From Candidatus Nomurabacteria bacterium RIFCSPLOWO2_01_FULL_42_20 (GTDB taxonomy: Bacteria; Patescibacteriota; Minisyncoccia; Phycocordibacterales; CAZVEC01): a DNA stretch of 39,896 nucleotides. The first letter of the stretch is position 1. Each line of letters begins with the position of its first letter. Position numbers and translations under genes: made by a program. Of this stretch, positions 1,270 to 37,625 are shown in pieces. The stretch spans positions 1-39,896 of the forward strand of contig MFVF01000034.1 of NCBI GenBank assembly GCA_001785965.1, in the 5' to 3' direction. The notes beneath the pieces were generated by a model. The model worked only from the letters and a program-made list of their open reading frames with translations. It was not told the origin of the DNA and made no database searches.

Positions 1270-1377
1270 TTCGCATGAGCGCATTCGTCCTTCGATCCCG
1301 CTCAGGACCCTGAGGAATTCGAAGGGTAGCGCGCATCATGATTTTTGAACTCAATGTTCAAAAATCATGACCTTAAC
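1270..1377. repeat. TTCGCATGAGCGCATTCG hairpin element, copy 1 (with a nested second repeat)
   Basis: TTCGCATGAGCGCATTCG (1270-1287), nested tccttcgatcccgctcaggaccctgaggaattcgaaggg (1288-1326), TAGCGCGCAT, stem catgatttttgaac / gttcaaaaatcatg with loop tcaat, then ACCTTAAC. Confidence 0.8.
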
Positions 1378-3874: not shown

Positions 3875-3945
3875 TTCGCATGAGCGCATTCGTAGCGCGC
3901 ATTGCCATTTCTGAAACTCGATGTTTCAGAAATGGCAACCTTAAC
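3875..3945. repeat. TTCGCATGAGCGCATTCG hairpin element, copy 2
   Basis: TTCGCATGAGCGCATTCG-TAGCGCGCAT, stem ttgccatttctgaaac / gtttcagaaatggcaa with loop tcgat, then CCTTAAC; same flanks and loop as 1270-1377 but a different stem. Confidence 0.8.
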
Positions 3946-10694: not shown

Positions 10695-12411
10695 GAATTT
10701 TATTTTCACTCTTTTAGTTTTTTTTATTTTTCCATTTTACCCCCACACCTTCCTGCAGGAAGGTGTGGGGGTTTATTTTGTTTTTGCTCAAACTGAAAGT
10801 ACCGGGAGTATCGTTATAACAGAAATCATGTATGATCTTTCCGGATCCGACACTGGTCGGGAATGGATTGAGGTTAAAAATAATAATTCGGCTGATGTTG
10901 ATCTCTCCACTTACAAATTTTTTGAAGACGATACCAATCATAAATTAGAGAGCTTTCAAGGCGAACCCATTTTAGATTCTGGTAGTTTTGCCATCATCGC
11001 CGATGATCCATCAAAATTTTTAATTGATTGGCCGAATTTCTCCGGCGCTATTTTTGACAGCAGTTTCTCATTATCAAATACCGGCGAAGCTCTGACTCTG
11101 AAAGATGAAAACTCAAATATTGTTGACGAGGTAAATTATGTTTCTCTTTGGGGAGCTTCCGGCAACGGCAAATCTCTTCAGCGTAAAATTGATAGCAGTT
11201 TCATTGAAGAATTACCGACTCCCGGCGCGGAATTAGCTGAAGAAATTATACCAGAGGAAGTAATTACAGAAGAAATTATCCCAGAAGAAGTTATTCCGGA
11301 AGAAATTATTACAGAAGAGATTATTTCAGAAGAGGTAGTTACAGAAGAAGTTATCCCGGAGGAGATTATTACGGAAGATTCTTTGGAAAATAATGAAATT
11401 ACGGAGAATATAGAAGTCATATTAGAAAATTTGACAGGCGAAGAGTTTATAGAAGATACAGAATCAGAAAGCACAGAATCTAATGAAAATGCCGAAGAAA
11501 ATGTTGATCAGTCAGAGGAGCAAACAAAAGAAGATCCTGAAAATCCTGAAGAAGCTGAAATAATCAGCACGGAAACGCCTAAGGTTTTTATAAACGAAAT
11601 TAATTGGATGGGCAGCGCGGGTAATGCATATGGCGAATGGATAGAACTTTACTGCAATTGCGCTAGTGATATGGATTTAGCTGATTTTGGAATTTATGAC
11701 GGTGATGAAAAATTGATTATAAAATTAACTAAAAAAATATCAGCTCACGGCTATTATCTCATAGCAAGAACAACACCAAGTCATAAAAATGAATTGGAAG
11801 AATATGCTGATGAAATCGGCCAATTTGGCGGTAGCGGTTTATCAAATGAAGCCGAAATGCTTGTCTTAAAAGACGGCGGCGGCAATATTGTAGAGAGTCT
11901 TGATTTTAGGAGCGGCTGGCCGGCGGGAGATAATAGCACAAAAGAAACAATGCAGTGGGACGGGGCAGGGGAAAATTGGTTCACCAGTCCGGCCACGCCT
12001 CGGGCGGAGAATAAAAAAATAATAACTGAAAACAGTACAACTAATTCAAACGCATCTAATACGGATTTTTCTGCAAGCGAGAGCGCAAATGTAGCGCCAA
12101 TTGTTAATGTCCAAGAAAAAAAACAAGAGAAAAAAATTATTACTTCGAAGGATCTAAAAATTTACTTCAACCAAAATGATTTTTCCATAAAATTCAAAAA
12201 TACTACAAAAAAAGAAATTAATTTATCAAATTTAAAATTGCAAAGCGGAAGCAAAACATTTACAATTCCTAAAAACACATTTTTGCTTGGCGGCAGTGAA
12301 ATTATTGGGTCATCTAAAATTACCGGTTTTAACCAAAAAGACGATTTAATTCTGATTGGTGAAGATAATAAAATAATCACTGACGCTTCATTCATGAACC
12401 CTCGACTTTAA
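10663..12411 (+). CDS. Secreted lamin-tail-domain (LTD) repeat protein with acidic E/I/T/P linker
   Basis: Two LTD-like segments: IVITEIMYDLSGSDTGREWIEVKNNNSADVDLSTYKF... and VFINEINWMGSAGNAYGEWIELYCNCASDMDLADFGIYD...; signal-like N terminus. Confidence 0.85.
   Translation: MLKKLQKIKTRNFIFTLLVFFIFPFYPHTFLQEGVGVYFVFAQTESTGSIVITEIMYDLSGSDTGREWIEVKNNNSADVDLSTYKFFEDDTNHKLESFQGEPILDSGSFAIIADDPSKFLIDWPNFSGAIFDSSFSLSNTGEALTLKDENSNIVDEVNYVSLWGASGNGKSLQRKIDSSFIEELPTPGAELAEEIIPEEVITEEIIPEEVIPEEIITEEIISEEVVTEEVIPEEIITEDSLENNEITENIEVILENLTGEEFIEDTESESTESNENAEENVDQSEEQTKEDPENPEEAEIISTETPKVFINEINWMGSAGNAYGEWIELYCNCASDMDLADFGIYDGDEKLIIKLTKKISAHGYYLIARTTPSHKNELEEYADEIGQFGGSGLSNEAEMLVLKDGGGNIVESLDFRSGWPAGDNSTKETMQWDGAGENWFTSPATPRAENKKIITENSTTNSNASNTDFSASESANVAPIVNVQEKKQEKKIITSKDLKIYFNQNDFSIKFKNTTKKEINLSNLKLQSGSKTFTIPKNTFLLGGSEIIGSSKITGFNQKDDLILIGEDNKIITDASFMNPRL
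10739..10772. repeat. 34-bp perfect palindrome inside the signal-peptide coding region
   Basis: A-CCCCCACACCTTCCTGCAGGAAGGTGTGGGGG-T; encodes PHTFLQEGVGV in FPFY-PHTFLQEGVGV-YFVFAQ. Confidence 0.9.
11238..11379 (+). repeat. Degenerate tandem repeat encoding EEIIPEEVITEE-type linker
   Basis: EEIIPEEVITEEIIPEEVIPEEIITEEIISEEVVTEEVIPEEIITED. Confidence 0.85.
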
Positions 12412-29770: not shown

Positions 29771-30012
29771 CGGCCAGAGCTAGACCGGGTCTAGCTCTGG
29801 CTCGAATTGGCCGGGAAACCCCTGTTGAAACCTGGTTTCAACAGTTCTTCAAAAATTAAAGATTTTGTCGAATATTTTCTAGAAAACACCCCCGTCAAGG
29901 AGCCTCCTTGACGGGGGTGGACTTTTAGTAAATTATTAGAAAGTGATAACTGAAGTCAGACCTCAGCAAACCCTTTATTGACGGCCCTTTACTGAGGTCT
30001 GAATTCAGTCTA
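29771..30012. repeat. Cluster of four different long inverted repeats
   Basis: gccagagctagac cgg gtctagctctggc; ctgttgaaac ctg gtttcaacag; cacccccgtcaagga gcc tccttgacgggggtg; actgaagtcagacctcag ... ctgaggtctgaattcagt. Confidence 0.85.
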
Positions 30013-30476: not shown

Positions 30477-30512
30477 ATACCTACACCTGGTGTCGACACC
30501 AGGTGTAGGTAT
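30477..30512. repeat. 36-bp perfect palindrome upstream of the DUF5667-like gene
   Basis: ATACCTACACCTGGTGTCGACACCAGGTGTAGGTAT. Confidence 0.92.
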
Positions 30513-36470: not shown

Positions 36471-37625
36471 TTATTCCAATCGTAGACCGCCACAGGCGGC
36501 GATGGAGTGGGATTTGGACGGCGCGCTTTTGGTGATGTAGCGAAAATAGCCGGCCAGAGCGATCATGATGGAATTATCAACGGAAAGCTCTTTAGTGGGG
36601 AAGTAAATCGGAATGTTAAGTTTTTCCACTTCTTTTTGCAAAGTTTTTCTAATTTGATCATTGGCAATTACGCCGCCGCCAGTAATAATTGTTTTTACTT
36701 TGAATTCTTTGGCCGACCGCATTGTTTTTGAAACCAAAACATCAGTCACCGCGTCTTGAAATTCTTTGGCGATTGCCATTTTCCAGCCCGAGGCTGGTCC
36801 GCCTTGGGCGGATATTTTGAATTTATATTTTTTTTCTAAATCTCTCACTAGATATAATACGGCGGTTTTGAGTCCCGAAAAGGAAAAATCGAAATCACCG
36901 CTGTTAATCATAGGGCGGGGGAGGGAAATTTGAATTTTCCCTCTCCTTACTAAGGAGAGGGCAGGGTGAGGTGGATTTAATTTCGCCAATTTTGAAATTT
37001 CCGGCCCGCCGGGATAGGGAAGGCCAAGAAGCCGCGCCACTTTGTCAAAAGCTTCGCCGGCCGCGTCATCTCTTGTCTCGCCCAGAATTTTATAGTTCAT
37101 AAATTTTTTTACTAAAACCAACTCGGTATGTCCGCCGGAAATAAGCAAAGCCAAGGCCGGAAATCCCACTTTCCTTAGTGTTTCAAATTCTTTTAACTTT
37201 AAACTTTTAACTTTCAACTGGTCATATTTTTTCTTCTCTTTAAGAAGAGAAGAAAAAATATGACCTTCCATGTGATTAACCGGTATTAATTTCTTTTTCA
37301 ATTTTTTGGCAAGGGCCTTGGCGAATTCAAGGCCGGTCCATAAAGCCGGCTCTAATCCTGGTCCATAGGTGACAGCGACAATATCAATTTTTTTCTCGCT
37401 TAGACCTGCCTCTTTCAGCGTTTTTTTAAAAAGAATAGGCAGATTTTTGAGATGTTCGCGTTTGGCAAGCATCGGATAAACTCCGCCGTATTTCCGGTGA
37501 ATTTTTATTTGGCTGGCGACATTGTTGGCCAAAATCCTAAAACGCGCGCTTTTTATACCGCCCCTCGCCTCAACTATACTTATCGCTGTTTCGTCGCAGG
37601 ATGTTTCGATGGAAAGTATGATCAT
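36471..37625 (-). CDS. tsaD: tRNA N6-threonylcarbamoyladenosine transferase TsaD, with in-frame repeat insertions
   Basis: MIILSIETSCDETAISIVEARGG...VNHMEGHIFSSLL...ALLISGGHTELVLVKKFMNYKILGETRDDAAGEAFDKVARLLGLPYPGGPEIS. Confidence 0.97.
   Translation of the reverse strand: MIILSIETSCDETAISIVEARGGIKSARFRILANNVASQIKIHRKYGGVYPMLAKREHLKNLPILFKKTLKEAGLSEKKIDIVAVTYGPGLEPALWTGLEFAKALAKKLKKKLIPVNHMEGHIFSSLLKEKKKYDQLKVKSLKLKEFETLRKVGFPALALLISGGHTELVLVKKFMNYKILGETRDDAAGEAFDKVARLLGLPYPGGPEISKLAKLNPPHPALSLVRRGKIQISLPRPMINSGDFDFSFSGLKTAVLYLVRDLEKKYKFKISAQGGPASGWKMAIAKEFQDAVTDVLVSKTMRSAKEFKVKTIITGGGVIANDQIRKTLQKEVEKLNIPIYFPTKELSVDNSIMIALAGYFRYITKSAPSKSHSIAACGGLRLE
37220..37265. repeat. 21-bp perfect-arm hairpin inside tsaD
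   Basis: ggtcatattttttcttctctt taag aagagaagaaaaaatatgacc. Confidence 0.92.

Follow-up and report, generated by a model that had tools for sequence, protein, structure and literature searches.

The window, the whole 39,896-nt stretch analysed here, is contig 34 of a 697-kb genome (95% complete) and contains two copies of a short folded repeat (Table 1). Copy 1 occupies the entire gap between the stop codon (1267–1269) of a gene for a small cysteine-rich protein and the start codon (1380) of a TauE-type gene. The product of the 5' gene (1009–1269, + strand), which lies upstream of both copy 1 and the TauE/SafE-type exporter gene, is 86 amino acids long and is without a Pfam or NCBIfam match. 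Both copies read as they were first described in an earlier note on this DNA, which presented copy 1 as an element with constant flanks and loop and a swapped stem, itself invaded by another repeat.

Table 1. Parts of the two copies of the element in the window
Feature	Position	Strand	Remark
Copy 1	1270..1377	+	108 nt: 69-nt element plus 39-nt insert
5' unpaired tag TTCGCATGA, copy 1	1270..1278	+	an A precedes the tag in nearly all copies
Hairpin A, 5' arm GCGC, copy 1	1279..1282	+	
Loop A, first part ATTCG, copy 1	1283..1287	+	
Nested 39-nt foldback TCCTTCGATCCCGCTCAGG...TTCGAAGGG within loop A, copy 1	1288..1326	+	
Remainder of loop A (TAGC), hairpin A 3' arm GCGC and linker A, copy 1	1327..1335	+	
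Hairpin B, copy 1	1336..1370	+	perfect 15-bp stem TCATGATTTTTGAAC, loop TCAAT
3' tail CCTTAAC, copy 1	1371..1377	+	
Copy 2	3875..3945	+	71 nt, uninterrupted
Hairpin B, copy 2	3902..3938	+	perfect 16-bp stem TTGCCATTTCTGAAAC, loop TCGAT

Comparison with relatives gives the order of parts as a tag (ATTCGYRTGA), hairpin A, a linker base, hairpin B and a short tail. The constant flanks and loop around an altered stem are retained in this anatomy, but the part that precedes the stem, described previously as flank, is itself a small hairpin. Hairpin A has a stem of 4–5 bp beginning with GC and a loop, mostly of 9 nt, of the form ATTYGTRRY; in the copies of the window's own genome it reads GCGC-ATTCGTAGC-GCGC, and in other genomes its stem takes on new sequence that still pairs (GCGGC/GCCGC, GCGAC/GTCGC and GCCAA/TTGGC). 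The register used first for this hairpin in model R1, ATGAGCGC/GCGCGCAT, was rejected in favour of GCGC, a 9-nt loop and GCGC because the latter is common to nearly all relatives; it leaves one mismatch in the own copies. Hairpin B usually has a stem of 13–18 bp (8–9 bp in a few relatives) and a loop that is TCRAT in the window's genome and in genomes G019 and G042, and TCTG or TCGG in G081 and most copies from genus g62. The tail is CCTTRAC in most copies of the window's genome.

The two copies in the window are more than a chance pair. A genome search with the 14-mer CATGAGCGCATTCG, allowing at most one mismatch, returned eight copies as against none with the reversed control, and a covariance model trained on these eight found 11 copies in the genome (E-values 1.7e-31 to 1.4e-13), on contigs 3, 5, 7, 16, 22, 25, 31, 32 (two) and 34 (the two in the window); those on contigs 3, 22 and 25 were recovered though absent from the training set. 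Folded as single strands, copies give z-scores of −5 to −9. All 11 appear intergenic, and both the neighbouring gene and the orientation relative to genes vary. The open reading frames that overlap copies in a mechanical list are short or doubtful with one exception on contig 32, where the copy at 2752–2820 overlaps by about 30 bases a frame that runs off the locus and whose start codon is uncertain. Copies often abut the A/T-run of a neighbouring gene's intrinsic terminator (contigs 3, 16 and 25, copy 2 on contig 34, and several in G129); such sites may be preferred targets or merely tolerated ones. Upstream of the copy on contig 22 (L040:685-730) stands ATTCGCACCTTAACAACCTTAAC, the tag joined to the tail with both hairpins gone, which looks like a hairpin-deleted remnant of the element.

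The unpaired parts of the element are nearly constant, while its longer stem is not. Compared across nine own copies, the 18-nt 5' block shows 0.012 differences per site, loop B 0.11 and the tail 0.09, against 0.36 and 0.47 for the two arms of stem B, values which are inflated by a 1-bp indel as counting is by position. Eight different B stems occur among the 11 own copies, and these are Watson–Crick paired in 167 of 168 cells, the sole exception being one G-T, with no mismatches; the 23 curated copies yield 319 Watson–Crick, two G-T and two mismatched pairs in stem B, and 22 copies yield 99, one and one, respectively, in stem A. The pair-counting script takes the best stem and trims bad ends; the own copies nevertheless pair over the full 15–16 bp. 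In the eight-copy alignment, stem B is paired in 100% of cells with changes on both sides at 11 of 14–15 pairs, and its covariation score was reached by none of 500 shuffles, slid versions coming nowhere near. As the unpaired letters are near-constant and the stem is varied but paired, stem B is held to pairing and not to sequence. This bears out the proposal of a constant outer sequence with fully compensated stem changes and the expectation that no single stem is fixed. The swapped stem of the earlier note stands in so far as the stem differs between copies, but rapid paired divergence describes the difference better than exchange of a module.

Two ways of keeping the arms matched, selection for pairing and a copying process that rebuilds one arm from the other, had been suggested from the two copies in the window, and the larger set is open to both. 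Template switching during replication (quasipalindrome correction), in which a base change spreads from one arm to its partner and no selection for folding is needed, is known to homogenise the arms of inverted repeats and to maintain hairpins (PMC8794818, PMC8604942), and hairpins maintained in this way share with the element perfect arms and compensated stem changes of several bases. Such copying is favoured by arms whose per-site divergence is about 30-fold that of the 5' tag although they remain paired, by the 1-bp indel between the 15- and 16-bp stems being present in both arms and by the scarcity of G-T intermediates; the other perfect foldbacks of at least 14 bp, of which the genome holds about 42 per 198 kb (11 of these being the element), also speak for it. 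However, inversion of the spacer, a known by-product, is absent, the loop being TCRAT in 11 of 11 own copies and never ATYGA, and nine of the 11 covarying pairs alternate by transitions, which are passable through G-T. Furthermore, the stem varies rather little near the loop and in its TTTT part, an observation that copying by itself would leave unexplained, and the element, in contrast to hairpins maintained by template switching, is repeated at scattered sites and has unpaired motifs that stay constant. Template switching is therefore held here as a tentative though serious possibility; it concerns only the matching of the stem and is compatible with mobility of the element. A related scheme, in which fold-back copying during transposition or replication rebuilds one arm such that copies would start out with perfect stems whose sequence changes quickly beside fixed unpaired letters, appears rather improbable. 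The family offers a compact natural data set on arm matching, where the tag marks copies as close kin and stem divergence exceeds one-third.

Loop A carries an extra foldback in five of the 11 own copies: 39 nt in copy 1, 33 nt on contig 32, 107 nt on contig 7, about 34 nt on contig 22 and, on contig 25, a rearranged and extended hairpin. One copy in G097 also carries an insert in loop A. Self-folding was computed for three of the inserts and judged by inspection for the remaining ones. The 107-nt piece recurs at 95% identity on contig 32, separately and with other surroundings, and is thus an element of its own. Relative to uninterrupted copies, the 107-nt and 33-nt pieces are joined at ATTCG^TAG with neither duplication nor loss of target bases, and the 39-nt piece at the same point with at most one ambiguous base, consistent with the exact split between TTCG and TAGC reported previously for copy 1. 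The core CCTTCGANNNNGCTCAGG of the 39-nt piece is found again, with mismatches, at other places in the genome, in agreement with the proposed invasion of copy 1 by another repeat; from this recurrence, its self-folding and its clean joints, the piece most likely represents a second foldback of REP-like type inserted into loop A. The placing of one foldback inside the loop of another, with the target left unduplicated, is what single-strand insertion would be expected to produce.

Convincing copies are present, in diverged form, in about ten genomes of the same order as the window's genome, and genome searches found relatives at the level of the order only. Named carriers are Taylorbacteria and Wolfebacteria; Falkowbacteria yielded two matches of hairpin A only. 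The hairpin-A pattern is found in 16 of 397 genomes of the order at 26 sites, as against seven matches for the reversed control, and part of these 16 are chance as judged by inspection. Model matches in G017, G034, G043, G066, G090, G095, G215 and G262 were weak and, on inspection, due to chance or to loosely related sequence. A phylum sample of 380 genomes besides the window's own gave two weak pattern matches, both in low-complexity TTTTTTTT and not exceeding the reversed-pattern controls, and viral contigs searched with the 5' pattern gave zero matches. The wider search proposed for such genomes is thus borne out within the order, but across the phylum sample returned only chance-like matches. 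In genus g62, some copies have two further hairpins upstream. A separate two-hairpin repeat of this genus, GAGCGACACCGCAGGG...GCGCAGGGTA, often immediately precedes the tag and is also found alone; occurring both with and without the element, it indicates that the units are modular. Loci L068 and L118, also from genus g62, hold the two-hairpin repeat GAGCGACACCGCAGGGCGTTAAACCCTGCGGGTCGC...ACCCTGCGCAGGAGCGCAGGGTA, which has many copies in several species, frequently lies upstream of the element and is sometimes followed by ATTCGTA-type motifs.

A check for empty sites, as the earlier note had advised, was positive at one site. On contig 6 of G129 (genus g62) a copy lies between two genes in a gap of about 99 nt, and the same gap, counted by eye, is element-free in four sister species, measuring 7 nt in G364, 8 nt in G286, 14 nt in G394 and 47 nt in G239. 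The comparison covers this one site, and its boundaries can be placed only approximately, not to the base, because the genomes compared differ by 20–30%.

Conserved loops and covarying helices also resemble an RNA family, and the element might accordingly be a dispersed structured RNA or a 3'-end stabilising element co-transcribed with neighbouring genes. The location of several copies just downstream of genes or beside intrinsic terminators would suit such a role, as would the two extra upstream hairpins of some g62 copies. However, the near-absence of G-T pairs (2 of 323 in stem B) fits pairing at the level of DNA better than a structured RNA, and a search of Rfam 15 gave only tRNAs in the window and nothing credible for the long form. 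Inconstant neighbouring genes and orientation, the interruption of hairpin A in five of the 11 own copies and the presence or absence of a copy between sister species likewise argue against a transcribed function, making this explanation unlikely. Ordinary intrinsic terminators, or other hairpins belonging to the adjoining genes, are very improbable: the stems are long and perfect and the site is intergenic, as would be needed, but the bases next to the stem are ACC(T)TRAC in the + direction and GCGC-rich in the opposite one, a T-run follows the hairpin in neither, the constant 28-nt 5' part is alien to a terminator, and distinct true terminators lie beside several copies. Identity with an integron attC site was set aside, as we take the end boxes of such sites to be unlike those of the element.

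We propose that the element is a non-autonomous interspersed foldback DNA of the REP/MITE type, which probably moves as a folded DNA single strand with the help of an HUH enzyme provided in trans, and assign this reading a probability of about 0.58. Dispersed intergenic copies, covarying stems, presence and absence at one site between sister species and the precise insertions in loop A count in favour of mobility. Fixed unpaired letters combined with free but paired stems are a signature of folded-strand recognition: the recognised substrate would be the folded single strand, in which tag, loop A, loop B and tail are fixed in sequence and the stems only in pairing. Similarly, TnpA-REP and IS200/IS605 enzymes contact single-stranded DNA hairpins at loops, bulges, the 5' tag and unpaired bases (PMC8266576). 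Movement would be catalysed by a Y1 (HUH) transposase in trans, probably a RAYT-like protein of a kind common in the order, and the arms may stay matched because only foldable copies serve as substrate, possibly aided by template switching during replication. If this is correct, the fixed unpaired letters predict the contacts of the enzyme once it is found. Counted against this reading are the absence, among 28 loci examined, of a Y1 gene flanked by the element and a copy number that is low for REPs. A bias of copies towards the lagging strand was considered and dropped, since GC skew on the element strand was negative for 13 of 19 copies, several being near zero, which is not significant.

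The element shares with the REPs of the GTAG and CGTC superfamilies (PMC3733652) the character of short, non-coding intergenic palindromes in many copies, with compensated variable stems and a conserved unpaired motif, and also resembles them in serving as an insertion hot spot, as documented for REPs (PMC1525189, PMC3733652). It differs in size and composition (69–71 nt with two different tandem hairpins, as against 20–40 nt with one), in copy number (about 11 as against hundreds) and in its tag, ATTCGYRTGA in place of a GTAG (GYRG) or CGTC foot tag (PMC3733652). Hairpin A has ATGA or GTGA at its foot and hairpin B has GCGCA or similar, GTRG occurring only within loop A. In REP/RAYT-type systems the RAYT gene is flanked by its own repeat, whereas a scan for the tag and loop motifs around 28 Y1 loci from 10 genomes found none bordered by the element; the cognate gene may reside in another genome. 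As the foot tag and a flanked RAYT are both lacking, we do not file the element as a classical REP member. REPINs (PMC3116915) are likewise dispersed, non-autonomous two-hairpin units, but consist of inverted copies of one REP, whereas hairpins A and B are unlike in sequence, loop and length and are fixed head-to-tail. IS200/IS605 and the miniature elements derived from them share subterminal hairpins on one strand, recognition of loops and unpaired bases (PMC8266576) and insertion without target duplication; no full-length parent insertion sequence with the element's ends was present among the transposases examined. A limited literature search found no description of REP-type repeats in Patescibacteria, whose genomes are small.

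The window's genome has three RAYT-like Y1 genes (L009, L010 and L011), which match PF01797 above its cut-off and NF047646 (REP_Tyr_transpos) below its cut-off, and none of the three is flanked by a copy of the element. The few motif matches near the 28 Y1 loci are not element copies at gene ends. Y1 genes occur in nine of 10 carriers as against 58% of genomes in the order (115 of 197), and the carriers are not phylogenetically independent; the remaining carrier, G077, is without a Y1 gene among the matches listed. This co-occurrence lends weak support to mobilisation by an HUH enzyme. Other palindromes stand on either side of two of the three own RAYT-like genes and downstream of the third: AATTAAGCAGGTTGAACCTGCTTAATT on both sides in L010:1185-2060, CCCCGTCAAGGAGGCTCCTTGACGGGG upstream in L009:1215-2060, where a partial copy lies downstream, and CCAGAGGAGGACCAGGTCCTCCTCTGG downstream in L011:1100-1240. 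It is possible that these palindromes are the cognate repeats of the adjoining enzymes. In G081, a RAYT gene lies 1.5 kb from a copy of the element (contig C28), probably by coincidence, given the intervening sequence, an apparently opposite-strand gene and the RAYT's own AATTGGTGTCAGGTACC-type repeats. At this locus (L114:2440-3540, contig 28) the RAYT gene lies amid many short repeats of this type and a partial duplicate of its own 3' end.

Other foldbacks accompany the element in its own genome. A longer one, TTCTGTCCGGGGAAAATTC...GAATTTTCCCCGGACAGAA, which represents a further dispersed inverted-repeat family, lies immediately or a short way upstream of two copies (L005:1521-1640 and L002:1310-1465). 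Within the window, further perfect inverted repeats of 15–21 bp are found at 10739–10772, 29887–29919, 30477–30512 and 37220–37265.
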